A stretch of DNA of 64,000 nt, from the NCBI GenBank assembly GCA_945878865.1, contig CAMCUD010000001.1:310001-374000 (forward strand). Reading direction: 5' to 3'. Position 1 is the stretch's first letter; every line of letters starts with the position of its first letter. This stretch comes from Bifidobacterium breve (GTDB lineage: Bacteria; Actinomycetota; Thermoleophilia; Solirubrobacterales; Solirubrobacteraceae). Below, in pieces: positions 23,990 to 53,639 of this stretch. The notes below the pieces were generated by a model. The model had not been told where the DNA came from. It saw only the letters and a program-made list of their open reading frames with translations, and did no database searches. The position numbers and the translations under genes are program-made.

Positions 23990-25342
23990 GTGCTGTTCAA
24001 CCCGCGCGGTGCGCTGTGCGCCGTAGCAACGTCCATCGCCGTCGTCCTGACGGCCGCCACCGGGGCCAGCGCCGCGGGCACGGACGGGGTCCTGATCCAG
24101 CACACCGACGGGTCGATCACCGTCGAGCATCCGAACGCCCAGCTCTCGAAGCTCACCGGGTTCGCCGCGAAGGCGTCGCGCCGCAAGGGCGTGCGCTTCG
24201 CCGAGCCCAACCGCCTCTACGCCGCGGCGTCCTCGCCCGGCGACCCGCTGTTCGGCGACCAGTGGTCGCTGGCCGATGACACGGTGATCGGCGCGGGCCC
24301 CGCGTGGGACCAGACCACAGGCGGCGACGTCACGGTCGCGGTCATCGACTCGGGCGTCGACACGACGCACCCCGATCTCGCGCCGAACATCTGGACGAAT
24401 CCGCGCGAGGTGCCCGGCAACGGCGTCGACGACGACGGCAACGGCTACGTCGATGACACGCAGGGCTGGAACTTCGTTAACAACTCGCCCAACGCACGGG
24501 ACGACAACGGGCACGGCACGCACGTCGCGGGGATCATCGGCGCGAAGGGCGGCAACGGCATCGGGGTCGCCGGAGTCGCGTGGAACGTGAAGATCATGCC
24601 GGTGAAGGTGCTCGACGCGACGGCCGTCGGCTCGGCCGCCACGCTCGCCCAGGGCATCCGCTACGCCGTGGCCAGCGGCGCGCAGGTCATCAACCTGTCG
24701 GTGTCCGGGCCCGGCTACAGCAAGGCCTTCGAGGATGCCGTGCAGTTCGCCAGCGACAACGGCGTGATCGTCGTCGGCGCGGCGGGCAACGACGGGCGCA
24801 GCGTCGACGCCTCACCGGTCTACCCCGCGGCCTTCAATGCGCCGCTCATGCTGGCCGTCGCGGCGACGGCGCCGGGCGGCGGCCTCGCGTCGATCTCGAA
24901 CTACGGGGCGGGCAACGTCGAGCTCGCCGCGCCCGGCCAGGACATCGTCTCCACGGCGATGGGCGGCGGCTACGAGCGCCGGACCGGCACATCGATGGCC
25001 ACGCCCCACGTCGTCGGTGCGCTCGTCCTGCTCGCCGCGGCGCGCCCGGATCTCGGCCCGGTCGGCTGGCGCGACGCGCTGCTGGCCACCGCCCGTAAGG
25101 GGCTGCCGGTCAGCGGCGGCATGATCAACATGTCCGGAGCCCTGCAGAGCGTCCTTGGGACGAGCTTCAAGGCGACGCTGAAGCGCACGGGCTCGTCGGT
25201 GAAGCGCAGCGCCTGCTCGCTGCGGCGCGCCAAGGCGATCTCGGCGGCGATCCGCAAGCGCGAGCGCGGCAACCTCTACGTGCGGGCGCAGAGCTCGTGC
25301 ACGAGCAGCGCGCCGACGGCGGTCAGCGCCGGCAGCCGCTGA
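23990..25342 (+). CDS. Secreted subtilisin-like (S8) serine protease
   Basis: This 450-residue protein has a signal peptide (about residues 1-28, ending ATGASAAG), a short prosegment, and an S8 catalytic domain. The triad is visible as Asp120 in AVIDSGVDTTHPDL, His175 in DDNGHGTHVAG and Ser335 in TGTSMATPHVVGA, and ASGAQVINLSVS marks the core sheet. The C-terminal 80 residues are basic with two Cys. It should degrade proteins outside the cell. The GTG start at 23990 has a good ribosome site (GGGAGGG, 6 bases upstream). Confidence 0.92.
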   Translation: MLFNPRGALCAVATSIAVVLTAATGASAAGTDGVLIQHTDGSITVEHPNAQLSKLTGFAAKASRRKGVRFAEPNRLYAAASSPGDPLFGDQWSLADDTVIGAGPAWDQTTGGDVTVAVIDSGVDTTHPDLAPNIWTNPREVPGNGVDDDGNGYVDDTQGWNFVNNSPNARDDNGHGTHVAGIIGAKGGNGIGVAGVAWNVKIMPVKVLDATAVGSAATLAQGIRYAVASGAQVINLSVSGPGYSKAFEDAVQFASDNGVIVVGAAGNDGRSVDASPVYPAAFNAPLMLAVAATAPGGGLASISNYGAGNVELAAPGQDIVSTAMGGGYERRTGTSMATPHVVGALVLLAAARPDLGPVGWRDALLATARKGLPVSGGMINMSGALQSVLGTSFKATLKRTGSSVKRSACSLRRAKAISAAIRKRERGNLYVRAQSSCTSSAPTAVSAGSR

Positions 25343-25364: not shown

Positions 25365-25486
25365 GGGCCGAACGTCTGTCCTGCGGGGTCAGGGCCCTGC
25401 GTGACGTACGTTCGGCGGGCCGGGCCGGGTGAGCGTCTGTCCTGCGGGGTCAGGGCCCCGCGTGACGTACGTTCGGCGTGTCGGCG
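25365..25486. repeat. Tandem pair of 61-base palindromic repeats, locus 1
   Basis: Two 61-base units lie head to tail (25365-25425 and 25426-25486) between the protease and a small membrane protein gene. Each begins near GCGTCTGTCCTGCGGGGTC or the same with GAACG, and ends in GTGACGTACGTTCGGC. The ends pair as GCCGAACGT and ACGTTCGGC, so each unit can form a hairpin. The first 24 bases of the unit are shared with the second locus at 52845-52966. Confidence 0.7.
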
Positions 25487-25513: not shown

Positions 25514-25780
25514 GTGGGCTGGACGTTCTTCTTCCTGATGGTCGTCCTGAAGGTCCCCATCGTCGCGCTCCTGTGGATCGTGTGGTGGGCGATCAGGGCC
25601 GCCCCCGACGCCGAGGCGGGCGGCCAGGACGACGGCGGCACGCACCGCCCGAACGCGCCGCAGCCGCACACCGGCCCGGGCCCCGGTCGTCCTCGTGGGC
25701 CGCACGGCGAGCCGTCACCGCCGAGCCCGCCGCGCACGCGCCCGGCGCGTCGTCCGGCATCCCGCCCCGTCCGGCCGTAG
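25514..25780 (+). CDS. Small single-pass membrane protein, Pro-rich tail
   Basis: The 88-residue product has one clear membrane helix at its N-terminus (FFFLMVVLKVPIVALLWIVW, residues 4-23), followed by a hydrophilic tail rich in Pro, Gly, Arg and His. I do not recognise a family. The GTG start at 25514 follows a TACCCT hexamer and begins directly at the helix. Its stop codon is part of the candidate -10 element of the dCTP deaminase gene, so the two are closely packed. A membrane-anchoring or small regulatory role is possible but unsupported. Confidence 0.5.
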   Translation: MGWTFFFLMVVLKVPIVALLWIVWWAIRAAPDAEAGGQDDGGTHRPNAPQPHTGPGPGRPRGPHGEPSPPSPPRTRPARRPASRPVRP

Positions 25781-25790: not shown

Positions 25791-26375
25791 GTGAGCGCCA
25801 CCTCGGTCCTCTCCGACGGCACGATCCGCCGCCTCATCGCCGACGGCGCGATCAAGGTCGATCCCTGGGACGACGGCATGGTCCAGCCGGCGTCGGTGGA
25901 CCTGCGCCTCGGGCACAGCTTCCGCGTGTTCCACAACCACCGCGCGTCGGCCATCGACCTGAAGGACCCGCCGCGCAACCTCACCGAGCAGGTGACGATC
26001 GCCGACGACGAGCCGTTCCTCATCCACCCCGGCGAGTTCGTCCTCGGCCGGACACTCGAGTGGGTGGAGCTGCCGGACGACATCGTCGCCCGCATCGAGG
26101 GCAAGTCGAGCATCGGGCGCCTCGGGCTCATCGTGCACGCCACCGCCGGGTTCGTCGATCCGGGCTGGAAGGGCACGCTCACGCTCGAGATCACGAACCT
26201 CACCCGCATCCCGATCAAGCTCTGGGCCAACCTCCCGATCGCCCAGCTGTCGTTCATGACGCTCGACCGCGCCGCCGAGCGGCCGTACGGGCACCCGGAG
26301 CTCGGCTCGCACTACCACGGCCAGGTCGAAGCGACCGAGTCGCGGTACGAGGGCGGGCCCGCCAAGACCGCCTGA
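25791..26375 (+). CDS. dcd: dCTP deaminase (possibly bifunctional with dUTPase activity)
   Basis: The 194-residue protein matches Dcd: SDGTIRRLIADGAIKVDP at the N-terminus, QPASVDLRLGHSF, the catalytic segment RIEGKSSIGRLGLIVHATAG, and FVDPGWKGTLTLEITNL. The C-terminal PYGHPELGSHYHGQ loop closes over the nucleotide. It converts dCTP to dUTP, and actinobacterial homologues of this length often go on to dUMP, so both steps are possible here. The GTG start is supported by length and by the hexamer just upstream. Confidence 0.93.
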   Translation: MSATSVLSDGTIRRLIADGAIKVDPWDDGMVQPASVDLRLGHSFRVFHNHRASAIDLKDPPRNLTEQVTIADDEPFLIHPGEFVLGRTLEWVELPDDIVARIEGKSSIGRLGLIVHATAGFVDPGWKGTLTLEITNLTRIPIKLWANLPIAQLSFMTLDRAAERPYGHPELGSHYHGQVEATESRYEGGPAKTA

Positions 26376-51782: not shown

Positions 51783-52823
51783 ATGCATCAGCCGATGCCG
51801 ATCACCCGTGGCGTGAGCACCCGCCGTCACCCAGGTCTCATGCTGGCCGCGCTCGGCGCGGTCGTCGTCGCCCTGCTGGCGTTCGCGGCCCGCCCCGCGA
51901 TGGCCAGCTACGCCGTGGGCGTGGCCGACAACAAGCCCGCGACGTTCTCCGACCCGCGGTTGAAGCAGATCGGGATCAAGACGGCGCGGGTGGTGTTCCC
52001 GTGGAACGCCATCAGCCGGGACCCGCAGACGATCGCCGACTACATGTCGGCCGCCAAGGCCCACAACATCCAGGTGCTCGTCGCCTTCGACCGCACGCGC
52101 GGCAACCAGTGCCCGCAGAAGCCGTGCACGCTGCCGTCGGTCAAGCAGTACAAGCGCGAGTTCACGCGCTTCCACAAGAAGTACCGGTACGTGAAGTACT
52201 TCAGCCCATGGAACGAGGCCAACCACCCGGGACAGCCGACCGCCAAGCGGCCCGACCGCGTCGCCGACTTCCACGACGTGATCATGGACACGTGCCGGAA
52301 GTGCACCGTCGTCGCGGGCGATCCGCTGGACTCCAGCGGCGTCGGCGGCTGGATGCGCTCGTACGAGAAGCGCCTGCGCGTCAAGCACAAGCGCAAGGTC
52401 AAGATCTGGGGCCTGCACAACTACATCTCGGCGAACTACTTCTCCACCGCGGGCACGCGGGAGGCGCTGAAGGCCACGAAGGCGAGCATCTGGCTCACCG
52501 AGACGGGCGGCATCGTCCAGATGCTCACGTTCGACTCGACGCGCCTGAACTACGACGAGGGCCGCGCCGCCCGCGCGCTGCAGTTCGCGTTCGACCTCAA
52601 GGCGAGCTGGCCCTGCCGGATCATGCGGATGTACGTCTACAACTGGCAGGCGGCGCCGAAGGACCGGTTCGACACCGGGGTCATCAACCCAGACGGCCGG
52701 GCGCGCCCCGCCTTCGGGGTGCTCTCGCAGGCGATGCAGCCGTCGTCGCCGGTGCAGCAGGGCAAGGCCAGGTGCGCGGACTTCCGCGCGATCCAGGCCA
52801 AGCAGCGCCAGAAGAAGCGTTGA
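51783..52823 (+). CDS. Secreted clan-A glycosidase-like protein
   Basis: The 346-residue protein has a signal peptide or anchor (LMLAALGAVVVALLAFAARP, cleavage near AMASYA) and a TIM-barrel-like body. KYFSPWNEANHPG holds the expected acid/base (Asn144-Glu145) and SIWLTETGG the likely nucleophile (Glu240). This spacing fits clan-A glycoside hydrolases, which cleave polysaccharides by a retaining mechanism. Family assignment and substrate are unclear. A basic Lys/Arg/Gln-rich tail ends the protein. The ATG at 51783 is chosen over a GTG five codons upstream. It could process the polymer made by the genes at 1-12 kb, which is inference. Confidence 0.7.
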   Translation: MHQPMPITRGVSTRRHPGLMLAALGAVVVALLAFAARPAMASYAVGVADNKPATFSDPRLKQIGIKTARVVFPWNAISRDPQTIADYMSAAKAHNIQVLVAFDRTRGNQCPQKPCTLPSVKQYKREFTRFHKKYRYVKYFSPWNEANHPGQPTAKRPDRVADFHDVIMDTCRKCTVVAGDPLDSSGVGGWMRSYEKRLRVKHKRKVKIWGLHNYISANYFSTAGTREALKATKASIWLTETGGIVQMLTFDSTRLNYDEGRAARALQFAFDLKASWPCRIMRMYVYNWQAAPKDRFDTGVINPDGRARPAFGVLSQAMQPSSPVQQGKARCADFRAIQAKQRQKKR

Positions 52824-52844: not shown

Positions 52845-52966
52845 GGGCCGAGCGTACGTCCTGCGGGGCTCTGACCCCGGTGAACCACCGTTCACCCCGG
52901 GTGGCGGGCCGAGCGTACGTCAGGCGGGGCTATCACCCCGGTGAACCACCGTTCACCCGGACTGGG
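52845..52966. repeat. Tandem pair of 61-base repeats, locus 2
   Basis: Two 61-base units (52845-52905 and 52906-52966) lie between the glycosidase-like gene and the VTT gene. Each starts GGGCCGAGCGTACGTC and contains GGGG...CCCC and GTGAAC...GTTCAC inverted arms. The first 24 bases match the units at 25365-25486. The stop codon of the VTT gene lies inside the second unit. Confidence 0.7.
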
Positions 52967-53639
52967 CGGGGCGCGTGGCGGCGCGGACGTCGCGCGCCAG
53001 CAGCCACGCGCCGGCGATCGCCATGACGATGAGGACCGCGAGGGCGGCCAGTGCCTCCGGCGAGCGCAGGTCGCCGAACGACCCGCCGAGCGCGACGTAG
53101 GCGGCGGTGCGCGGCGCCGCGCCGAGCGCGGTCGCCGAGGCGAACGCCAGGAGGGACACGGGCGTCAGACCCGCCGCGTAGTTGACGAGGTTGTACGGCA
53201 GGCCCGGTGCCGCGCGGGCGAGCAGGATGGCGACGAACCCGCGGCGCCCCACCCACGCGCGCAGCGCGAGCACGCGCGCCCCGGCGGTGCGCTCCACCGC
53301 ATCGTGCGCCCACCAGCGCGCAAGCGAGAAGGCGAGCACGGCGCCCAGCACGATCGTCGCGAGGACCGTCGGGATCCCCACCGCGACGCCGAAGATCACG
53401 CCCCCGATCGCACACAGGACGGGGCCGGGGAACAGCGCGACGGTCAGCAGCGCACCCACGACGATGAACAGCAGCGGCCCGAGGATCCCCAGGTCGCGCA
53501 CGGGCTCGCGGATGTTGTCCTCGACCCAGCCCGACACCTCGTCGACGCTCAGCGTGCCCGACAGCGTGAGCACCGCCGTCGCGCCGAACACCACGACGAT
53601 CAGCGCGACGAGACTGCGCAGGCGTGCGCGGTCACTCAC
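52953..53639 (-). CDS. VTT/TVP38-family membrane protein
   Basis: The 228-residue protein has about five membrane helices and matches the SNARE-associated/DedA-related VTT family: LLFIVVGALLTVALFPGPVL, FGVAVGIPTVLATIVLGAVL and the signature RAAPGLPYNLVNYAAGLTPV. VTT proteins are implicated in lipid scrambling or membrane homeostasis. The GTG start overlaps the stop of the upstream UbiB-family kinase as GTGA, so the two are made together. The last codons lie in a 61-base repeat, so the repeat has shaped the C-terminus. Confidence 0.82.
   Translation of the reverse strand: MSDRARLRSLVALIVVVFGATAVLTLSGTLSVDEVSGWVEDNIREPVRDLGILGPLLFIVVGALLTVALFPGPVLCAIGGVIFGVAVGIPTVLATIVLGAVLAFSLARWWAHDAVERTAGARVLALRAWVGRRGFVAILLARAAPGLPYNLVNYAAGLTPVSLLAFASATALGAAPRTAAYVALGGSFGDLRSPEALAALAVLIVMAIAGAWLLARDVRAATRPAQSG

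Follow-up and report, generated by a model that had tools for sequence, protein, structure and literature searches.

The window analysed here is a 64,000-nucleotide stretch of contig CAMCUD010000001.1 (assembly GCA_945878865.1), and it contains two doublets of a 50-bp imperfect palindrome, the first between a protease gene and a small membrane protein gene and the second between two convergent genes. Both doublets belong to a family dispersed through the genome, and in three genomes palindromes of matching type bracket AbiEi-like/Vsr-like nuclease genes, which lie outside the window. The features at the two loci are:

23990–25342, + strand: subtilase-family protease (Peptidase_S8, E = 2.8e-55), stop codon 24 bp before unit 1
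25367–25416, + strand: palindromic unit 1, arms A/A, centre TCAGGG, 50-bp imperfect palindrome
25417–25427, + strand: 11-bp linker of doublet 1, length fixed in the 61-bp class, sequence unconserved
25428–25477, + strand: palindromic unit 2, arms A/A, centre TCAGGG, 50-bp imperfect palindrome
25514–25780, + strand: small predicted membrane protein, no Pfam match, start 36 bp after unit 2
25791–26375, + strand: next gene, dCTP-deaminase-like protein (judged by sequence), used to find relatives
51840–52823, + strand: gene converging on doublet 2, stop 23 bp before the doublet
52847–52896, − strand: palindromic unit of doublet 2, arms A/B, centre CTCTGA on the + strand
52897–52907, − strand: 11-bp linker of doublet 2
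52908–52957, − strand: second palindromic unit of doublet 2, arms A/B, provides the TGA with which the convergent VTT-domain gene ends
52953–53639, − strand: VTT-domain (DedA-like) membrane protein gene, whose stop codon falls within the repeat

The sequence-only reading of this window had placed two head-to-tail copies of a 61-base unit between the protease and the small membrane gene. The copies and the period of exactly 61 are confirmed, with the boundaries refined to two 50-bp units (25367–25416 and 25428–25477) and an 11-bp linker, and the doublet does follow a Peptidase_S8 gene and precede a predicted membrane protein gene. Within the unit GCCGAACGT pairs with ACGTTCGGC and, as had been proposed from the pairing of the unit ends, each copy forms a hairpin on RNA folding, a single unit reaching −34.1 kcal/mol (z −5.1). 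The pair folds best jointly: for doublet 1 on the + strand the best fold is one long hairpin (−85.3, z −5.7), and a long hairpin is the best fold in 40 of the 52 strand folds of the 26 doublets found in the genome. Doublet 2 has the same period of 61 in the opposite orientation; the further claim that the two loci share their first 24 bases holds only approximately, as in each unit of doublet 2 one arm is swapped for another arm type, GGTGAACSNTGGTTCACCGGGG. A 23-base core of the window doublet has two matches in the window and none in 100 shuffles, and an Rfam scan of the window matched no family.

A dispersed family of 50-bp palindromes

The genome that contains the window (G000) comprises 4.96 Mb in 79 contigs. 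Because the dCTP-deaminase-like gene next to doublet 1 is 97% identical to its counterpart in Svornostia abyssi J379, the genome is, judged from this gene, that of a Svornostia species, Solirubrobacteraceae. We compared it with S. abyssi, with a congener (G002) and with a member of another genus of the same family (G028).

As the sequence-only reading had supposed, the repeat is dispersed and REP-like (REP, repetitive extragenic palindromic), and a genome-wide search that tolerates mismatches found further copies both in this genome and in relatives. In G000, 16 places matched the core. A covariance model yielded 133 strand matches, and with a degenerate skeleton pattern we counted 88 places, the reversed control giving 4; the genome has about 84 such units. 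Elsewhere the skeleton pattern gave 40 matches against 0 in G028, and 17 against 1 and 8 against 1 in two congeners with different arms, with most other genomes of the family at control level. A scan of the GTDB genome collection with the B-arm pattern gave no match, though near records may be left out of it, and viral contigs held no copies of the arms.

Each unit of 50 bp consists of 22-bp arms and a 6-base centre, with ends GARCG...CGYTC in which GNNGARCG is paired with CGYTCNNC. There are three arm types in G000, A (GARCGTNNGTCNTGCGGGG), B (GGTGAACSNTGGTTCACCGGGG) and C (GARCGTCYGATCACCGTCGC). Units with A and B arms occur mostly as doublets with a spacing of 60/61 or 70/71 bp, and C-type units occur singly. 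The two units of a doublet resemble each other more in direct orientation (38.8 of 50 positions at the same site, 34.1 between sites) than inverted (33.5). The GARCG ends, the length and a GC-YNNR-GC-like centre are common to the differently armed palindromes of two congeners and G028, and between families the arms change on both sides yet stay complementary. Within single doublet units the arms pair worse than shuffled ones, because the halves are mosaics of arm types A and B, and covariation over the long hairpin was not above that of swaps.

The 20–21 bp linkers of the 70/71 class (C5:97689, C6:97186, C6:175819, C8:20468 and C35:30013) are mutually alike (GATACC...) and differ from the 11-bp linkers, with an arm order that is nearly always B A A B. 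Helical phasing of the 61- and 71-bp spacings was considered and dropped, since with such alike long linkers the 71 class looks like one subfamily. The elements are flanked by a C-rich 20 bp on the left and a G-rich 20 bp on the right; these sides are real, but as complementary flanks they were rejected because they do not form site-specific pairs. The G000 assembly breaks inside C-type palindromes at the end of C77 and at the starts of C7 and C36. A further type of palindrome, the third, occurs in S. abyssi at 384531, 1618801 and 1683814; its ends are GGTGTGA...TCACACC and its arms differ.

Turnover between related species

At three orthologous junctions (C1:168392, C30:23483 and C35:30013) the same gene pair occurs in S. 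abyssi without an element, which argues that the palindromes spread. At the window locus, about 2.6 kb of other sequence replaces the doublet in S. abyssi and includes a distant homolog of the nuclease treated in the next section. Other sites are occupied in both species, each with its own arm type: the two sites on either side of the nuclease gene at C28, with a doublet of period exactly 61 in S. abyssi as well, and C7:123308 (S. abyssi 4052401).

Among G000 junctions whose flanking genes lie close together in S. abyssi, we observed an indel of at least 300 bp at 3 of 6 junctions with an element and at 2 of 54 without (Fisher p = 0.005); two further indel cases fall at the element sites C6:97186 and C28:44418. 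Between threonine aldolase and dapB, a palindrome and a MerR-like gene are present in S. abyssi (3480611, L262) and G002 and both absent from the G000 junction (C48, L269). This palindrome is identical in S. abyssi and G002 although the flanks are about 85% identical.

Nuclease genes bracketed by matching palindromes

A REP-associated tyrosine transposase (RAYT; Y1_Tnp, PF01797) was found in none of G000, S. abyssi and G002 at E ≤ 1, with positive controls. G028 has two PF01797 genes, with no palindrome of the studied family near them; one Y1_Tnp gene there (C168, L209) has short direct repeats upstream that are unrelated to these palindromes. No Y2_Tnp (IS91-like) mobiliser was found either, in a search whose controls were only weakly positive.

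Palindromes do, in contrast, bracket genes for a protein with an AbiEi-like and a Vsr-like (DUF559) half, each gene having palindromes of its own arm type before and after it. This arrangement was found at seven loci in three genomes, two of them predicted beforehand:

G000: C28; C77/C7
S. abyssi: 3906k; 3925k; 1637k (F2 palindromes)
G002: C219; C42

Genes were called with a purpose-made caller based on codon usage, which missed some of the nuclease genes, and these were recovered by profile search. Both bracketed genes of G002 encode the same kind of protein as the bracketed gene at C28 of G000. The first of the two predictions, made from synteny with G002, placed a gene near 3.9245 Mb of S. 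abyssi, and a gene with a frameshift was then found at that place; a GGCAGATC-type palindrome follows it and an interrupted palindrome precedes it. Beside the gene, at about 3926022, an insertion sequence (IS)-like insert splits the latter palindrome at its centre. From the same synteny a second gene was predicted in G000 and found on C77 (L327:3059–3976, minus strand). It lies between two C-type elements, of which the outer is truncated by the contig end and apparently continues at the start of C7. The nuclease gene keeps its syntenic place between congeners.

In S. abyssi a more diverged homolog (1636987–1637892) is bracketed by two members of F2, an unrelated family of 50-bp palindromes that had been found before this gene was examined. 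F2 (GCATCGGGKCGNNAAGCGGGGAC...) occurs at 64360, 315560, 1379957, 1420150, 1636935 and 1637866, next to stop codons. In 1.14 Mb of S. abyssi, in regions that were partly picked by synteny and so are not a random sample, palindromes of one family bracket 3 of 4 nuclease homologs and 0 of about 1,080 other genes.

Dispersed copies resemble the flanks of particular nuclease genes. In G000 all 50 other units of A/B doublets, together with two A-type singles, find their best match in the C28 flanks, and the C-type singles match the C77 flanks in 20 of 20 cases. Likewise, two palindrome subfamilies of G002 sort between the C219 and C42 flanks, with one near-tie.

The partner protein has roughly 290 residues. 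Most members match DUF559 in Pfam, PADLOC assigns the N-terminal half to AbiEi (1.5e-10), and a profile search of solved structures gave 3hrl (1.1e-5) and 3r3p (0.007). In an AlphaFold2 model (mean confidence score, pLDDT, 90.7), residues 1–188 are predicted to have an AbiEi-like fold, superimposing on the AbiEi antitoxin 6y8q with Z 12.1 and a root mean square deviation (rmsd) of 4.2 over 182 aligned residues. Residues 193–293 are modelled with a Vsr-like, EDxHD-type fold, close to 3hrl (Z 11.8, rmsd 2.5, 92 aligned), the homing nuclease I-Bth0305I 3r3p (Z 11.7, rmsd 2.3, 93 aligned) and Vsr 1cw0 (Z 9.7, rmsd 2.5, 96 aligned). Its catalytic-type acidic and histidine residues E200, D227, E238, D240, H245 and D251 are invariant in eight homologs. 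Viral contigs and plasmids contained no relative of the nuclease, and a literature search returned no paper linking DUF559 to palindromic repeats.

A nuclease as the probable mobiliser

We think it probable that these elements form a REP-like system in which dispersed 50-bp palindromes are mobilised by the AbiEi-like/Vsr-like nuclease and not by a RAYT. Short non-coding palindromes would be copied to new places, as REPs are, and the copies that survive would mostly be those directly downstream of a stop codon or at convergent junctions. The palindrome, as hairpin or duplex, may be bound by the AbiEi-like half and nicked by the nuclease half, after which host repair or replication may copy it. 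Each nuclease gene would serve its own arm type, C28 the A/B doublets of the window and C77 the C-type singles. The binding sites suggested by the sequence-only reading would be plausible in this sense, as recognition sites of the nuclease.

Several observations weigh against such a role. Two of the more distant homologs, at 1483k of S. abyssi and its G002 counterpart, have no palindromes, and the C37 gene of G000 has only a short unrelated palindrome at each end. (In this AbiEi/DUF559-like gene, L343:16109–17113, the palindrome AACTTCCCG-nnnn-GCGGGAA stands at the start and just after the stop.) Three non-nuclease genes in the repeat-rich G000 also have elements on both sides, and the first nuclease gene was found by inspecting bracketed genes, which makes it a post hoc case. 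The sampled G028 loci contain no nuclease gene, the S. abyssi 3925k gene is frameshifted, and target-site duplication was not seen, flank identity showing no excess at k = 2–8. Furthermore, DUF559 proteins are common in such genomes, and the nuclease may be a passenger.

Some other enzyme could spread the repeats, with the nuclease gene as a favoured resident between two palindromes, for instance as a selfish gene of the homing type that uses palindromes as insertion sites, or as one that they protect. IS elements do enter such palindromes, as the insert at a palindrome centre in S. abyssi illustrates, the C-terminal half resembles a mobile-intron homing endonuclease, and the gene's conserved syntenic place would also suit a resident. 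However, a passenger of random palindromes would not be expected to show a gene-by-gene match of its arms to a dispersed subfamily, nor would the unrelated F2 family be expected to bracket a diverged homolog, and we regard this explanation as rather unlikely.

The balance tips slightly towards a new class of mobile DNA: palindromes dispersed by an AbiEi-Vsr-like (DUF559) nuclease that would have evolved independently of HUH/RAYT-REP systems. Each of several palindrome families would be co-evolving with a nuclease lineage of its own, within Solirubrobacteraceae and perhaps in other groups. REP-type repeats are already known, and many families have no known mobiliser. Were a Vsr-like nuclease to play the RAYT role, a DUF559 subfamily would gain a function and a second type of enzyme would be known to spread short hairpins; mobilisers of other orphan palindromes could then be found by looking for a nuclease gene bracketed by the repeat.

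Position at gene ends

The dispersed palindromes are extragenic and lie mostly behind genes or between convergent genes, as REPs do. Of 46 sites in G000, 22 are convergent, 19 tandem and 5 divergent, compared with 66, 229 and 58 of the 353 gene pairs in the same loci, and for most elements a stop codon is no more than about 30 bp away. In G028, 20 of 38 sites are convergent and the median distance to the nearest 3' end is 2 nt. The neighbour's stop codon is often inside the element, either TGA in GGTGAAC (distance −5) or TAG in the CTATAG/CATAG centre (distance −28).

This placement could mean that the hairpins are bidirectional terminators or mRNA-end structures of the host, selected at gene ends and homogenised by gene conversion, with mobility secondary. 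In tandem contexts, G.U mismatches also exceed A.C on the transcribed (sense) strand, 53 to 29. This excess is weak, however, when counted by site (11 versus 3, p = 0.057) and in a second set (34 versus 25, p = 0.30), and REPs share the location bias (PMC3733652). The elements have no U-tract, the following 20 bp being 55% G and 7% T after doublets and 47% G and 11% T after singles, so that the sequence-only suggestion of terminators is not supported for the intrinsic kind. Moreover, genes that converge in the window mostly do so at tight junctions without such a hairpin, the arms are wholly different between congeners, and sites can be empty. Host terminators thus seem an improbable account of the family, although hairpins at gene ends could possibly have an effect on RNA, as terminators or in a 3'-end role, at which the G.U excess hints. 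An ordinary miniature inverted-repeat transposable element (MITE) of a classical DDE transposon, which the inverted-repeat structure, high copy number and empty sites might suggest, is very improbable: the units are flush and 50 bp long instead of forming the two ends of a longer body, the sequences read contained no IS that shares their ends, and lengths 2 to 8 gave no target-site duplication signal.

Comparison with known systems

The elements differ from MITEs of DDE transposons in lacking a target-site duplication and from intrinsic (Rho-independent) terminators in lacking a U-tract behind the hairpin. IS200/IS605 elements carry one gene between two hairpin ends, measure about 1 kb and make no target-site duplication, and the same is seen here. 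Their enzyme, however, is an HUH transposase and not a Vsr-like nuclease; unlike them, the present gene is syntenic between species, and multiple identical copies were not seen. With EDxHD/Vsr-like homing endonucleases such as I-Bth0305I, the partner protein shares the predicted fold of the catalytic domain and the invariant acidic and histidine residues. The differences from I-Bth0305I are that the gene is free-standing and lies between palindromes, that the N-terminal half of its product is AbiEi-like, and that solo palindromes are dispersed without the gene.

REPs tagged with CGTC are not tied to RAYTs and are reported without a dedicated transposase (PMC3733652), and in being palindromic repeats they resemble the present family. 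Their stems measure 8–9 bp, their CGTC tag is unpaired and their tails are CCA-like, whereas our units are untagged with paired ends; the published account of them makes no mention of Actinobacteria (PMC3733652).

The closest parallel is that of REPs and bacterial interspersed mosaic elements (BIMEs) with their RAYT (TnpA-REP), including REP doublets forming hairpins (REPINs), where repeats flank the gene of the associated enzyme (PMC3733652, PMC3116915). In both systems short palindromes, numbering tens to hundreds, occupy gene 3' ends and convergent junctions and sometimes supply the stop codon; doublets of fixed spacing are frequent, the arms are species-specific and an enzyme gene is flanked by the repeats (PMC3733652, PMC3116915). 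Unlike REPINs, the doublets here consist of direct rather than inverted units, yet they can fold as one long hairpin. Classical REP membership does not apply: the unit is 50 bp with 22-bp arms, compared with 20–40 bp and stems of 6–13 bp in REPs, it lacks the unpaired terminal GTAG or CGTC tag of the REP definition (PMC3733652), and in place of a RAYT the flanked gene encodes an AbiEi-like/Vsr-like nuclease of unrelated fold.
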